Of a stretch of DNA of 64,000 nucleotides, positions 10,372 through 17,223 are shown piece by piece (position 1 is the first letter of the stretch; each line of letters begins with the position of its first letter). The position numbers were made by a program, and so were the translations under genes. Origin of the DNA: Ensifer adhaerens (GTDB lineage Bacteria > Pseudomonadota > Alphaproteobacteria > Rhizobiales > Rhizobiaceae); the NCBI RefSeq assembly GCF_013283195.1, contig NZ_JABEKT010000001.1, forward strand, positions 1,400,795 to 1,464,794, in the 5' to 3' direction. The notes beneath the pieces are model-generated. The model saw nothing but the letters and a program-made list of their open reading frames with translations. It was not told the DNA's origin and did not search any database.

Positions 10372-11421
10372 TCATGCCGCTTTTCTAAGCTCGATGCCGC
10401 GGTGTTCTTCGCGCCAGGAGGAGGGGCTCTTGCCGGTGACGCGCAGGAACTCGCGGTTGAAGTTGGATTTCGTCAGGAAGCCCGCCTCGAAGGCGATCTG
10501 CGTGATCGCCTCATTTGTCTTCTGAAGCAGCCGGCAGGCTTCCTCGACCCGATAGTTGTTGACGTATTGCGAGACGCTGATGCCGTGGATGCGGTTGATG
10601 GCGTTGGAAATACGCCGCGCCGGTACGCCGAGCTTGCGCGCGATCCGCGAGAGGTTGAGTTCGAGATCCTTGTAGAGCGCCTTCTTGTGCATCAACGCGT
10701 CGATGCTCTGCACGATTTGTGCGTCCTCTTCGCTTGCACCGCGCTCTTCGGGCAACGGCTCTTCATCCTGCCGTTCGCTGTCTGTGGATGTGTCGAAGCT
10801 GGCGATCGAGGCGGCGGATCCAAGAATGAGCAGGGCGAGCACGTTGCCGGCCGCAACGATCGCGCCGGAATAGGCGCCGCCGTTGCGTGTCTGGTCAAAA
10901 CCGATAGCGACGTCGCTGAGGGCAGACGCGACGAGCGCCCATCCGGTGATCTGCAGCGAGCGGTATGATCGAAGCACACCGTCGAGGCGGGACGTGACCA
11001 ATGCGTTCGGCCCAAGCCGCGCAAGCCACAGCAAAGCAGTGCCGTAACCGAGAAAGAACAGGATAATCGCGGTGCCGACTGCATCTCGCCAGGCAAACAT
11101 CATCACCCCGACGATGAACGCCGGCAGGAGATGCCAGCCGATGTGCCTCAGGCGTGGCTGGCTGTCGCTTGCAAGGCTGCTGAAACAGACCCAGGCGAGC
11201 GCCGCGTTGAACGTCGCAAGCATCGCCTGAGCCGGCAGGATGGCGCGGATGTCGTAGCCCCACCGGATGCCGATCAGCACGGATTGCAGCGCATAGGCGC
11301 AGACGAGCAGGAGGAACAGGCGTTGCTCGAACGTCATGGTCTCGTCCCGTTGCGACAGCATGCGGACGATCACGATCGTCAACAGGAGGGAGACGACGAA
11401 GGGTAGCGGTACAAACAGCAT
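10372..11421 (-). CDS. Membrane-bound AraC-family regulator with seven TM segments
   Basis: A 349-aa protein. About residues 1-215 contain seven hydrophobic segments, starting MLFVPLPFVVSLLLTIVIV and ending in VLALLILGSAASIA. A charged linker follows (about 220-240). A C-terminal AraC-type double HTH (about 250-345) contains ISVSQYVNNYRVEEACRLL and ITQIAFEAGFLTKSNFNREF-type helices, closing with the family signature F-x3-TGKSPSSWR. A membrane-tethered one-component regulator is therefore expected. The frame stays open up to 12042, but that part lacks coding character and would overlap the divergent secreted-protein gene, so ATG 11421 is chosen. The signal is unknown; the divergent gene at 11581 is the obvious target. 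Confidence 0.85.
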   Translation of the reverse strand: MLFVPLPFVVSLLLTIVIVRMLSQRDETMTFEQRLFLLLVCAYALQSVLIGIRWGYDIRAILPAQAMLATFNAALAWVCFSSLASDSQPRLRHIGWHLLPAFIVGVMMFAWRDAVGTAIILFFLGYGTALLWLARLGPNALVTSRLDGVLRSYRSLQITGWALVASALSDVAIGFDQTRNGGAYSGAIVAAGNVLALLILGSAASIASFDTSTDSERQDEEPLPEERGASEEDAQIVQSIDALMHKKALYKDLELNLSRIARKLGVPARRISNAINRIHGISVSQYVNNYRVEEACRLLQKTNEAITQIAFEAGFLTKSNFNREFLRVTGKSPSSWREEHRGIELRKAA

Positions 11422-11580
11422 GGGCGGATGAATTCTTCGGAGGAGGTGTTGACGCTGCGATGATGCCCTCGATTGCGTTCGTGGTCGACCCGAAACGCGA
11501 TCAAGGTCGCGGCTGGGGTCGATTTCAGGCGAGCTGTTCCCGTCCGGCGATGGTGCCGGATCCAACGAACGGAGCGTCAC

Positions 11581-12291
11581 ATGTCGATCGCACTGCCTGC
11601 AATGGTCCTTGCCCCCATCTTTCTCGTCGCCATGGCGAGCACCGCCGAGACGTCGGCGACCGACATCGATATCACCGGTGTCACGGCAATTGTTGCGAGC
11701 GGCGAGGCAAGCGCAATCGAACTCACCAGCGACGAGAGCTTGCCCTACAGTGCGTCGGTCGAGAGCCGTCGTTCCGGCTGGTTTGCGCCCTTCTATTCCA
11801 GCTGGTTTTACAGCGACTGCGTATCGCAAACACGGATGCGTGTCGAAGGCACCACCCTCTACGTCGACGTGGCGGCCCCGTCCTGGCCGGAACTGGAGGA
11901 GTGCAAGACCCAGTTTCGGGCTAACCTCAAACAGGGAGCATCGGTCTCTATCGAGCAACCGGCGTTTCAAGCCAAGCTCAAGGGGGAGTTTTCGCGTGTC
12001 GCGCTCAAGGGCAAGGCGGCGGATGTTTCGATCGACGGGCACGTCGGACAGGTCAGGCTCGACGTAGAGGCCCTGCGGGCGCGGCTCATCTACGGGAAGA
12101 CCCTGAAATCAGAGACAGTCGAGATCTCCGGAAAGGCGCTCGATATTCATCTTGGCTTCGATGCGGCAAGTTTGATCGATTATCAGGTGACGGCGACGGC
12201 GTCCTGGGTCGACAGTTCGCGAACGGCCATCCCCGGCGCCAAGCCACAGGTTCGCATCAAGGGGGAGATGGTACGAGCGACGATCCGCTGA
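11581..12291 (+). CDS. Secreted beta-rich hypothetical protein
   Basis: A 236-aa protein with an N-terminal signal peptide (LPAMVLAPIFLVAMASTAETSA, cleavage probably after about residue 22). The rest is dominated by short alternating hydrophobic strands such as VTAIVASGEASAIEL, VALKGKAADVSIDGHV and VEISGKALDIHLGF, resembling the repetitive beta-solenoid of DUF2807/DUF4097 adhesin-like domains. There are two Cys residues (SDCVSQ and EECKTQ). ATG 11581, with GGAG about 10 nt upstream, is selected; the frame upstream is not coding-like. It is divergent from the seven-TM AraC regulator, which suggests control by that protein. Envelope or surface localisation is inferred; no enzymatic motif is visible. 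Confidence 0.7.
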   Translation: MSIALPAMVLAPIFLVAMASTAETSATDIDITGVTAIVASGEASAIELTSDESLPYSASVESRRSGWFAPFYSSWFYSDCVSQTRMRVEGTTLYVDVAAPSWPELEECKTQFRANLKQGASVSIEQPAFQAKLKGEFSRVALKGKAADVSIDGHVGQVRLDVEALRARLIYGKTLKSETVEISGKALDIHLGFDAASLIDYQVTATASWVDSSRTAIPGAKPQVRIKGEMVRATIR

Positions 12292-15404: not shown

Positions 15405-16613
15405 ATGGGCACTCATCTTGGGGACTCCGTCCCCGAAGGCGGCGCGCGCAATGCGACCGTCACACACTATTTCACCGCCGGCTGCTGGATAGAAGGCGCG
15501 GCAATTCATCAACTGCGAGAAGTCTCGGCGCTCGCCGGTATGATTTCCGTCGCCGGCTTTCCGGATCTTCATCCTGGAAAATACGGGCCGGTCGGCATGG
15601 TCGCTCTTTGTGAGCGGCTTTACCCGCAATTGATCGGCAACGATATCGGTTGCGGCATGTCGTTCTTTGAGCTTTCCCTGCCGCTGCGCAAGTTCAAGGT
15701 CGAGAGGGCGGCCGAAGAGTTGCGCGGAATGGAGCAGATCGATCCGGGCGACCTGGCCGGACGGCTCGCGGAACATGATCTCTCGTCAGATATGTGCCCG
15801 CATTCACTCGGCACGATCGGCGGAGGCAACCATTTCTGCGAGATACAGGCCGTCGACGAAATGCTGAATGACGATACCGGAGGCCTCATCGATCGCCAGA
15901 AGCTCTATCTCCTGGTTCATTCCGGCTCGCGTTCGGCGGGAGCGGATCTCTTCGGCCAAACGCTTGATGCAGCCACAACGCTGCGCGACGGCATGGCTGC
16001 AGATTCGCTTGCTGCCAGGCAGTGGCTGGCACGAAGCGCCGACTGCGTGCGATGGGCGTCGCTCAACAGGCAGATGGTCGCCGAGCGTGCGGCCCAGGCG
16101 TTGCGTGCCGACGTGACGCTTGTTGCCGACGTGCCGCACAATCTGGTGCGAAGCACATCGGCCGGCTTTCTGCACTACAAGGGTGCGGCGGCCATCGGCG
16201 AAGGCACCGTTGCTCCGATCGCCGGCTCGCGCGCCACGAGAAGTTATCTCGTGCGGGCGCTGGCCGGCGCAGTGGCCTCCCATTGGGGAATTTCGCACGG
16301 CGCCGGGCGCAAGTATGACCGGAAGGCCATGCATGGCCGCGCCGGCGCGAACCGATCCGAGCGTGATGCCCTTCGTCTCAACGGCTGGGGCGGCGTTGCC
16401 ATCTGTGACGATCGCGACCTGCTGATCGAGGAAGCCGCGAGTGCCTACAAGGATGCGGCGAAAGTCGTCGGCGATCTCCAGGCATTCGGGCTCGTAGAAC
16501 CGCTCGCCGCCATGAAGCCGCTGGTGACCTACAAGAACGTCCAGCGGCAGGCGGTCGACTGGGACAAGGCAAAACGGGAGCGGATGACGATGAGGAGGAT
16601 GCGCCGTGGGTGA
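15405..16613 (+). CDS. rtcB: RtcB-family RNA ligase (PrfH-associated, RtcB2-like)
   Basis: A 402-aa RNA ligase of the RtcB family, joining 2',3'-cyclic-phosphate or 3'-phosphate ends to 5'-OH ends with GTP and Mn2+. Visible active-site elements: D80 and C83 in GNDIGCGM, N142-H143 in GGGNHFCE, H172 in HSGSRS, H245 in DVPHN, and H298 of the guanylylated motif SHGAGRKYDR. All metal-binding and nucleophile positions appear intact. The protein is shorter than archaeal RtcB and of the divergent type usually paired with PrfH. It overlaps prfH by 8 nt, showing translational coupling. The pair is proposed to reseal rRNA (or tRNA) cut by ribotoxins and to free the stalled ribosomes. Confidence 0.93.
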   Translation: MGTHLGDSVPEGGARNATVTHYFTAGCWIEGAAIHQLREVSALAGMISVAGFPDLHPGKYGPVGMVALCERLYPQLIGNDIGCGMSFFELSLPLRKFKVERAAEELRGMEQIDPGDLAGRLAEHDLSSDMCPHSLGTIGGGNHFCEIQAVDEMLNDDTGGLIDRQKLYLLVHSGSRSAGADLFGQTLDAATTLRDGMAADSLAARQWLARSADCVRWASLNRQMVAERAAQALRADVTLVADVPHNLVRSTSAGFLHYKGAAAIGEGTVAPIAGSRATRSYLVRALAGAVASHWGISHGAGRKYDRKAMHGRAGANRSERDALRLNGWGGVAICDDRDLLIEEAASAYKDAAKVVGDLQAFGLVEPLAAMKPLVTYKNVQRQAVDWDKAKRERMTMRRMRRG

Positions 16614-17223
16614 GGTGATGCTCTTTCTGACTGCGGGCAACGGTCCAGTCGAGTGCCGCATCGCCCTTGCCGCGCTCATCGATATCCTTTCCAGGGAAGC
16701 AAAGACGAGCGGCTGCAGCTTCGAGGAGACCCGTGGCGGTCAACCCGATGCGTTCGGTCCGAAGTCGGCCGTGGTGACGGTGTCCGGCAAGATGGCGGAG
16801 CAAATGGCCGAGACCTATTGCGGTACGGTCCGGTTTGTCTTCAAGAGCCCGGTGCGCAAGGGCCACCAACGTCAGAACTGGTTTGTCGGCGTTCGGCGCC
16901 TCGATCCTTGCGTCGATGCGGCCGTGGTGCCGACGATCGAGCACAAGGACTTGCGCTTCGAGACATTGCGGGCCGGTGGACCTGGTGGCCAGCATCAAAA
17001 CACCACCGACAGCGCGGTGCGGGCGACGCATGTGCCAAGCGGTATCACCGTTGTCTGCCGGGAGGAGCGATCGCAGCATCGCAACAAGGCAACCGCAATC
17101 CGCAGGCTTCAGAGCATTCTGGAGCTCATAGCGGCCGATCATGAAGAGCAGGAAAAAGCAGCCTTGTTCGTAGCCAGCAAGCAGTTGGAGCGTGGCAATG
17201 CGGTGAAGACGTTCCGGCTCTAG
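16606..17223 (+). CDS. prfH: Peptide chain release factor homologue PrfH
   Basis: A 205-aa release-factor-like protein. The catalytic GGQ tripeptide is at 127-129 within RAGGPGGQHQNTTDSAVRATH, followed by the domain-3 basic stretch SQHRNKATAIRRL. The N-terminal ~100 residues replace the codon-recognition region of RF1/RF2; no PxT or SPF codon-reading motif is evident. PrfH is known to hydrolyse peptidyl-tRNA on ribosomes whose 16S rRNA is nicked in the decoding centre, after which an RtcB-type ligase can repair the rRNA. GTG 16606 overlaps rtcB; ATG 16618 is a possible alternative start. Confidence 0.93.
   Translation: MGEVMLFLTAGNGPVECRIALAALIDILSREAKTSGCSFEETRGGQPDAFGPKSAVVTVSGKMAEQMAETYCGTVRFVFKSPVRKGHQRQNWFVGVRRLDPCVDAAVVPTIEHKDLRFETLRAGGPGGQHQNTTDSAVRATHVPSGITVVCREERSQHRNKATAIRRLQSILELIAADHEEQEKAALFVASKQLERGNAVKTFRL

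Follow-up and report, generated by a model that had tools for sequence, protein, structure and literature searches.

Our analysis of the 64-kb stretch of DNA presented above (64,000 nucleotides; hereafter the window) points to a compact module of two divergently transcribed genes, one encoding a membrane-embedded AraC regulator (P0001) and the other an exported beta-helix protein (P0002). From computation only, we consider it likely that this module works as a one-component membrane sensor that has an operator of its own and controls, besides itself, a single envelope cargo. In the proposed mechanism, the seven-helix domain of P0001 would lie in the inner membrane in an N-out/C-in orientation, and P0001 would probably sense its signal inside or at the membrane, since it has almost no periplasmic loops. 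Its cytoplasmic AraC domain would bind a tandem 44-bp operator in the intergenic region, and P0001 would control its own gene and switch the divergent P0002 gene, whose product would work in the periplasm or at the cell surface. Multi-helix membrane receptors mostly pass their signal on to partners; in this case receptor and transcription factor appear to be one protein. For soil and plant-associated bacteria, such a switch looks like an economical means of converting a membrane signal straight into transcription, and relatives seem to employ its DNA sequence for other envelope genes too.

The features of the locus are collected in Table 1. The ORF list and the sequence of the window place the two start codons 159 bp apart; the ATG of P0001 is conserved among relatives, and the start of P0002 was taken as the ATG at 11581. 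A 556-aa ORF with a GTG start at 12042 was rejected as the regulator, because it extends through P0002 and relatives have an MLFVPLPF-type start. The pair is flanked by what we take, from the sequences, to be an smc-like gene and a pyruvate phosphate dikinase-like (ppdK) gene, and the nearest named relatives are Ensifer oleiphilus (96%) and Sinorhizobium sp. A49 (94%), by which the window would probably belong to Ensifer/Sinorhizobium. An Rfam search of the window returned two tRNAs and nothing else, and a scan limited to sigma-70-type promoters found none around the gap. Elsewhere in the window (15405-17223, plus strand), an RtcB-family RNA ligase gene overlaps a peptide chain release factor H (prfH) gene, an RNA-repair/ribosome-rescue pair in which TIGR03073 and TIGR03072 each score above their cut-offs.

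Table 1. Coordinates of the features of the P0001/P0002 locus in the window.
Feature	Position	Strand	Basis
P0001, membrane-embedded AraC regulator, 349 aa	10372..11421	-	Pfam, AlphaFold2, hydropathy
AraC double helix-turn-helix of P0001, about residues 252-342	10396..10668	-	Pfam, structure alignment
Predicted seven-helix membrane domain of P0001, residues 1-215	10777..11421	-	hydropathy, AlphaFold2
Divergent intergenic region, 159 bp	11422..11580	none	
Conserved 44-bp element, proposed operator of P0001, two direct repeats 22 bp apart	11467..11510	-	61 bits
P0002, putative exported beta-helix protein, Toastrack-like predicted fold, 236 aa	11581..12291	+	predicted structure
Probable signal peptide of P0002, about residues 1-21	11581..11643	+	by eye
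Cys80-Cys108 span of P0002	11818..11904	+	invariant in 66 aligned rows

The initial annotation had described the regulator as seven hydrophobic segments fused to a full AraC double helix-turn-helix (HTH), a description that our analysis upholds in both its parts. P0001 has seven non-overlapping 19-residue segments with a mean hydropathy above 1.3 (residues 1-19, 35-53, 66-84, 93-111, 115-133, 156-174 and 188-206), and hydropathy averaged over 56 family members gives seven segments at identical places. At a stricter cut of 1.6, four segments are left in P0001, shuffling of residues 1-215 yields a mean of 2.9 segments and a maximum of 5, so that hydropathy by itself is not decisive. Seven are also predicted by the AlphaFold2 model (pLDDT 88, pTM 0.64), at residues 6-23, 31-56, 59-84, 99-110, 112-134, 149-180 and 185-215, followed by the HTH. 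The output domain matches HTH_18 (E 5e-21, 75.2 bits against a gathering cut-off of 33.6) and HTH_AraC (E 2e-7, 31.2 bits against 26.6), and known AraC structures align to residues 231-349 with Z up to 15.1. We infer that the N-terminal domain is inserted in the membrane, with a predicted N-out/C-in topology because K and R are commoner in loops 1, 3 and 5 of the family (means of 2.6, 2.7 and 3.5) than in loops 2, 4 and 6 (0.2, 0 and 0.7); the acidic residues also carried by loops 1, 3 and 5 (1.8-2.1) and the acidic linker past helix 7 (5.9 D+E versus 1.2 K+R) count against this orientation.

The membrane domain of the family carries conserved PL.F and GxRWGY motifs. No Pfam 7TM family, including 7TMR-DISM, matched at E<=0.1 in the four membrane domains scanned, where the one match was ACR_tran (0.01, in one member), and a profile of the domain found no relative among PDB sequences (best E 0.83). 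The predicted helix bundle can be superimposed by VIA on GPCRs of several classes with Z up to 14.6 (204 residues, 4.2 A), on a scale where scores short of about 13 may reflect helical bundles in general. Foldseek gave E 0.02 or worse and there is no sequence link; the likeness may be one of helix arrangement, and we neither adopt nor dismiss it as homology. A few regulator frames of the family appear broken or split, by an internal TGA or into separate pieces (G249:C2:75158-75774, G212:C49 and G231:C60).

Neither of the two outcomes that the initial annotation had named as refuting its reading was observed: multiple helices are predicted, as described above, and regulator and P0002 genes co-occur in relatives. 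At the genus level, P0001 orthologs (at least 87% identity) are present in 6 of 16 genomes and P0002 (at least 82%) in the identical 6. In 297 family-level genomes, P0002 was found at 24 places in 23 genomes, and at 20 of these places it is divergent from a regulator at up to 400 bp; the exceptions are G216, G325:C5 and G146:C5, which have no adjoining regulator, and G108, where the arrangement is convergent. The P0002 homologs at the first three (L254-L256) are diverged and have no element above 10 bits nearby, and the gene at the fourth (L237, G108:C2) is a distant P0002-like gene. Among the best 80 named P0001 relatives, which were chosen by rank of similarity to P0001 and thus lean to the P0002-paired branch, 75 have P0002 in divergent position, three have a divergent hydrolase (L159, L177 and L184) and two have neither (L183 and L185). 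Across the phylum, membrane-domain matches occur in 22 of 398 genomes and P0002 matches in 3, P0002 thus being narrower in spread than the membrane domain. As judged from these sequences, the pair and its candidate operator are conserved in many Hyphomicrobiales loci, far beyond chance. If P0001 and P0002 were functionally unrelated neighbours held together by shared regional ancestry alone, one would expect what is seen within the genus, where the surrounding genes are conserved too. Among the 80 relatives, however, smc- or ppdK-like sequence is found in the flanks (up to 3.5 kb) of just two and is missing from 78, whereas 75 keep the pair, and the 44-bp element is shared; plain synteny was rejected on these counts, and unrelated adjacency is already largely refuted and extremely improbable.

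The candidate operator emerged from an unsupervised motif search in 55 dereplicated intergenic regions (of 76), which returned a 20-bp motif with a log-likelihood of 782, against 105-107 in four shuffled sets (25 EM starts for the real set, 8 for each shuffled one). In its full 44-bp form, the element is present in all 76 P0002-regulator intergenic regions, with best sites of 33-62 bits, 55 of these regions having trained the matrix. Its end lies 34-49 bp before the regulator start in 65 of the 76 (range 34-301), and it begins 45-105 bp from the P0002 start in 71. Mean column similarity at the 22-bp repeat lag is 0.63, versus 0.14-0.47 at the other lags tested; each 22-bp repeat shows some inverted symmetry, and the halves of the window element agree at 13 of 22 bases. 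Direct-repeat sites about two helical turns apart suit AraC proteins. In the window, the only further site above 12 bits is the element's own reverse-strand shadow (27 bits), and eleven stretches of 5 kb lacking the element score at most -24.8.

Sixty-three held-out loci gave an independent view of the element: 50 exceed all 189 shuffles, 36 score at least 20 bits and 30 at least 30 (L254-L257, scanned with no site above 10 bits, were kept out of this set). The 13 that do not exceed the shuffles comprise eight loci where regulator and hydrolase are tail-to-tail, together with L218, L237, L238, L244 and L245. The region upstream of the hydrolase in the eight tail-to-tail loci lay outside the sequence behind this count. 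In five of the eight it scores higher than any shuffle (-10.1 at most), though only weakly, at -6.8 to 12.7 bits, and with one repeat, not two; by eye, seven of the eight (L286 and L288-L293) contain one inverted-repeat unit of the GACCT...AGGTC kind, and this single palindromic unit may be a simpler form of the operator. At L182 (4588-4635), the element before the hydrolase is itself nearly palindromic, scoring 52.9 and 48.5 bits on the two strands.

In the 7.07-Mb genome, a strict pattern allowing up to three mismatches finds the window site only, and a looser 25-bp core pattern has two exact sites, in the window and at C12:121331, each beside a family regulator; the looser pattern was written after the second site had been seen and, at two mismatches, finds five further places, against none for a control pattern. 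A wide regulon in this genome was rejected on these counts. The gene at C12:121331-122395 (L033 in genome G000) is a paralogous seven-TM AraC regulator with 43% identity to P0001, divergent from an alpha/beta hydrolase gene and sharing the operator core, and cross-talk between it and the window module is possible. One might object that some other conserved transcription factor binds the 44-bp element and that P0001 acts elsewhere. The two exact core sites both adjoin a family regulator, the element was not found beside six other AraC loci of the genome (of 18 AraC genes listed; scores at most -23.9), it stays with the regulator family through changes of cargo, and its tandem repeats suit an AraC protein, all of which makes this alternative very unlikely. 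We thus favour P0001 as the protein that would bind the element and as a probable regulator of its own gene.

The initial annotation had envisaged one sensor for one envelope protein. A candidate operator adds to that picture, whereas the restriction to a single protein does not extend to the family, other branches of which have a hydrolase or an ABC exporter instead of P0002. Outside the P0002 branch, many regulators have as their neighbour an alpha/beta hydrolase gene, which is divergent, tail-to-tail or downstream and is of the PETase/PAF-AH/DLH type in the three scanned in Pfam and possibly exported, as judged by eye from the N-terminus. P0002 and a hydrolase stand in tandem at nine P0002 loci, eight of them named Phyllobacterium, and at four P0002 loci (L109, L117, L139 and L182) a second element of 38-53 bits precedes a separate hydrolase gene. 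At 14 loci (L212-L215, L217, L219-L222, L224, L225, L227 and L232, with extensions L259-L274, and L185), the element is found on the far side of the regulator, with 19-35 bp between it and the start codon of a gene for a membrane-fusion protein, HlyD-type by Pfam in one case and alike by eye in the others. The six exporter loci examined further have an ABC ATPase and/or FtsX-like permeases after this gene; at the one scanned, L271, they resemble LolD and LolCE/MacB, below the equivalog cut-offs. The spacing of 19-35 bp between element and start looks more like repression of the exporter operons.

These rearrangements bear on what the element controls. In the 21 loci where it precedes a hydrolase or exporter gene and the regulator start is not on its other side, the stronger strand is opposite the cargo gene in 18 (the exceptions being L182, L267 and L273), and this near-constant orientation points to the cargo gene as a regulated target. 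The regulator tree follows cargo: over the 137 regulators of the tree, there are 8 changes of cargo label, compared to at least 42 in 500 label shuffles, labels having been set by hand for 127 of the 137, with ten regulators lacking an assigned cargo left out and the split regulator of L215 off the tree. The survey behind these figures covered a hand pick of 56 (L198-L253) from 110 regulator places in family-level genomes, with 20 P0002 pairs and three loci seen earlier; 31 of the 110 places were left out, 27 of them the weakest-scoring.

The divergent partner looks exported. In 74 of 75 P0002 homologs, the beta domain is preceded by a hydrophobic stretch that comes after a start codon; a lipobox-like motif is found in 6 and an AxA motif only in 43 more, all by crude rules. 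The two cysteines are invariant in the 66 aligned rows (window P0002 and 65 of the 75 homologs) and probably form a disulfide. The annotation's guess of an adhesin-type beta-solenoid was borne out as regards the fold: the structure prediction that it called for gives an almost all-beta model (pLDDT 88), whose best Foldseek match is 4QRK (E 2.1e-7, with a TM-score of just 0.42). VIA-align against the PDB gives Z 14.1 for 4YGU, 13.1 for 4QRK and 12.2 for 4OPW (rmsd 3.0-3.2 over 155-165 aligned residues), within a Z 12-14 group that also contains 3LYC, 3PET, 3JX8 and 3LJY; below it come a chain of the Legionella Dot/Icm complex (7MUC, 11.2) and then matches of Z 6-7 such as antifreeze proteins. 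The likeness is one of overall fold to the right-handed beta-helices of 4QRK and 4OPW. By sequence, none of the DUF4097, DUF2807 and DUF2154 Pfam models matched at E<=0.1 in 20 P0002 family members, and the family profile recovered no relative from the PDB sequences (E 0.68 at best), nor any Toastrack sequence at E<=1. Sequence membership of DUF4097/DUF2807 was thus rejected, and since none of the Pfam models match we call P0002 Toastrack-like in fold and not a Toastrack member. Identification as an LmeA-like phospholipid-binding protein (PF11209) was also discarded, at 16.7 bits against a cut-off of 27.3; this model reaches E<=0.1 in 4 of the 20 members, with 1.6e-4 at best.

What P0002 does in the envelope can be read in other ways. 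It could serve at the surface as an adhesin or matrix protein whose expression responds to a cue from a surface or a host, with envelope stress irrelevant. Among its best structural neighbours, several have PDB titles such as 'putative adhesin' or 'putative cell adhesion protein', and many hosts are, by name, soil and plant bacteria. PDB titles are, however, annotations and not tested functions, others among these neighbours read 'putative pectinase' and 'putative lipid binding protein', the lipobox-like motif in 6 of 75 homologs equally fits an envelope-anchored protein, and where other cargoes take its place they are an enzyme and an exporter; we regard an adhesin role as unlikely. Somewhat less unlikely, though still short of our preferred reading, is that P0002 takes part in sensing, docking on the membrane domain of P0001 and holding it inactive, or reporting damage, until envelope stress titrates P0002 away, in a feedback loop. 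The tight divergent pairing and the correspondence between regulator tree and cargo would agree with such a role, and PMC11237479, in the parts available to us, puts forward Toastrack domains as platforms for protein interaction when membrane stress is signalled; related regulators, on the other hand, adjoin a hydrolase or exporter without P0002, and the family as a whole thus does not need it. We therefore keep to P0002 as a cargo that P0001 would switch.

Three cargoes under one operator type provide a natural route to the signal. Because they are a Toastrack-like protein, a PAF-acetylhydrolase/PETase/DLH hydrolase and a LolCDE/MacAB-like exporter, the likeliest signal may be a membrane disturbed by lipid-like or amphipathic compounds, a suggestion that we make tentatively. 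It is just as speculative that these proteins form a family of membrane-embedded transcription factors, possibly with a GPCR-like bundle, that serve interchangeable envelope modules through one operator and would be a one-component counterpart of the Lia/Psp stress responses in alphaproteobacteria. The likely DNA site of P0001 can be read directly from genomes, and the module, including the sign and direction of any control, could thus be tested with two genes and a reporter.

LiaX is a Toastrack member. Ravi et al. (2024) unified DUF4097, DUF2154 and DUF2807 under the name Toastrack, with 4QRK and 4OPW among the examples, tied the domain to membrane-stress systems and argued that it is intracellular (PMC11237479, in the parts available to us); by word count, 'AraC' is absent from the main text of that paper. 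Like Toastrack proteins such as LiaG, YvlB and 4QRK/4OPW, P0002 is a predicted beta-helix, but unlike them it has no Pfam match (20 members), looks exported and has an invariant Cys pair. The module would link a one-component sensor to a Toastrack-like fold, which has until now been treated together with Psp/Lia systems. Our search of the open-access literature, main texts only, found no account of the alphaproteobacterial regulator family, its operator or the Toastrack-like link.

The kind of regulator is already known, in the form of AraC regulators with 6-7 TM beside secreted-enzyme genes. The initial annotation had called the module little-described, which is apt provided that it is not taken to mean undescribed: membrane-bound one-component AraC-type regulators with 6-7 TM (Sde_2491, 2495, 2928 and 3858) were tabulated in 2008 for Saccharophagus degradans 2-40, adjoining cellulase, glucosidase or cellulose-binding protein genes (PMC2386152, in the part available to us). 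P0001 resembles them in its seven or so predicted TM segments, its AraC output and the position of its gene beside one for a predicted exported protein, a likeness of architecture; organism and cargo differ, and that study, in the part available to us, relies on adjacency and names no operator (PMC2386152). With classical AraC/XylS regulators such as AraC, ToxT and RhaS, P0001 shares the double HTH and would share direct-repeat sites about two turns apart, but it has a seven-helix membrane domain instead of their soluble ligand/dimerisation domain. Regulators of the ToxR/CadC type have a single TM segment, a winged HTH and a large periplasmic domain; P0001 would, like them, be a one-component regulator touching DNA from the membrane, but with seven predicted TM segments, an AraC HTH and almost no periplasmic part.
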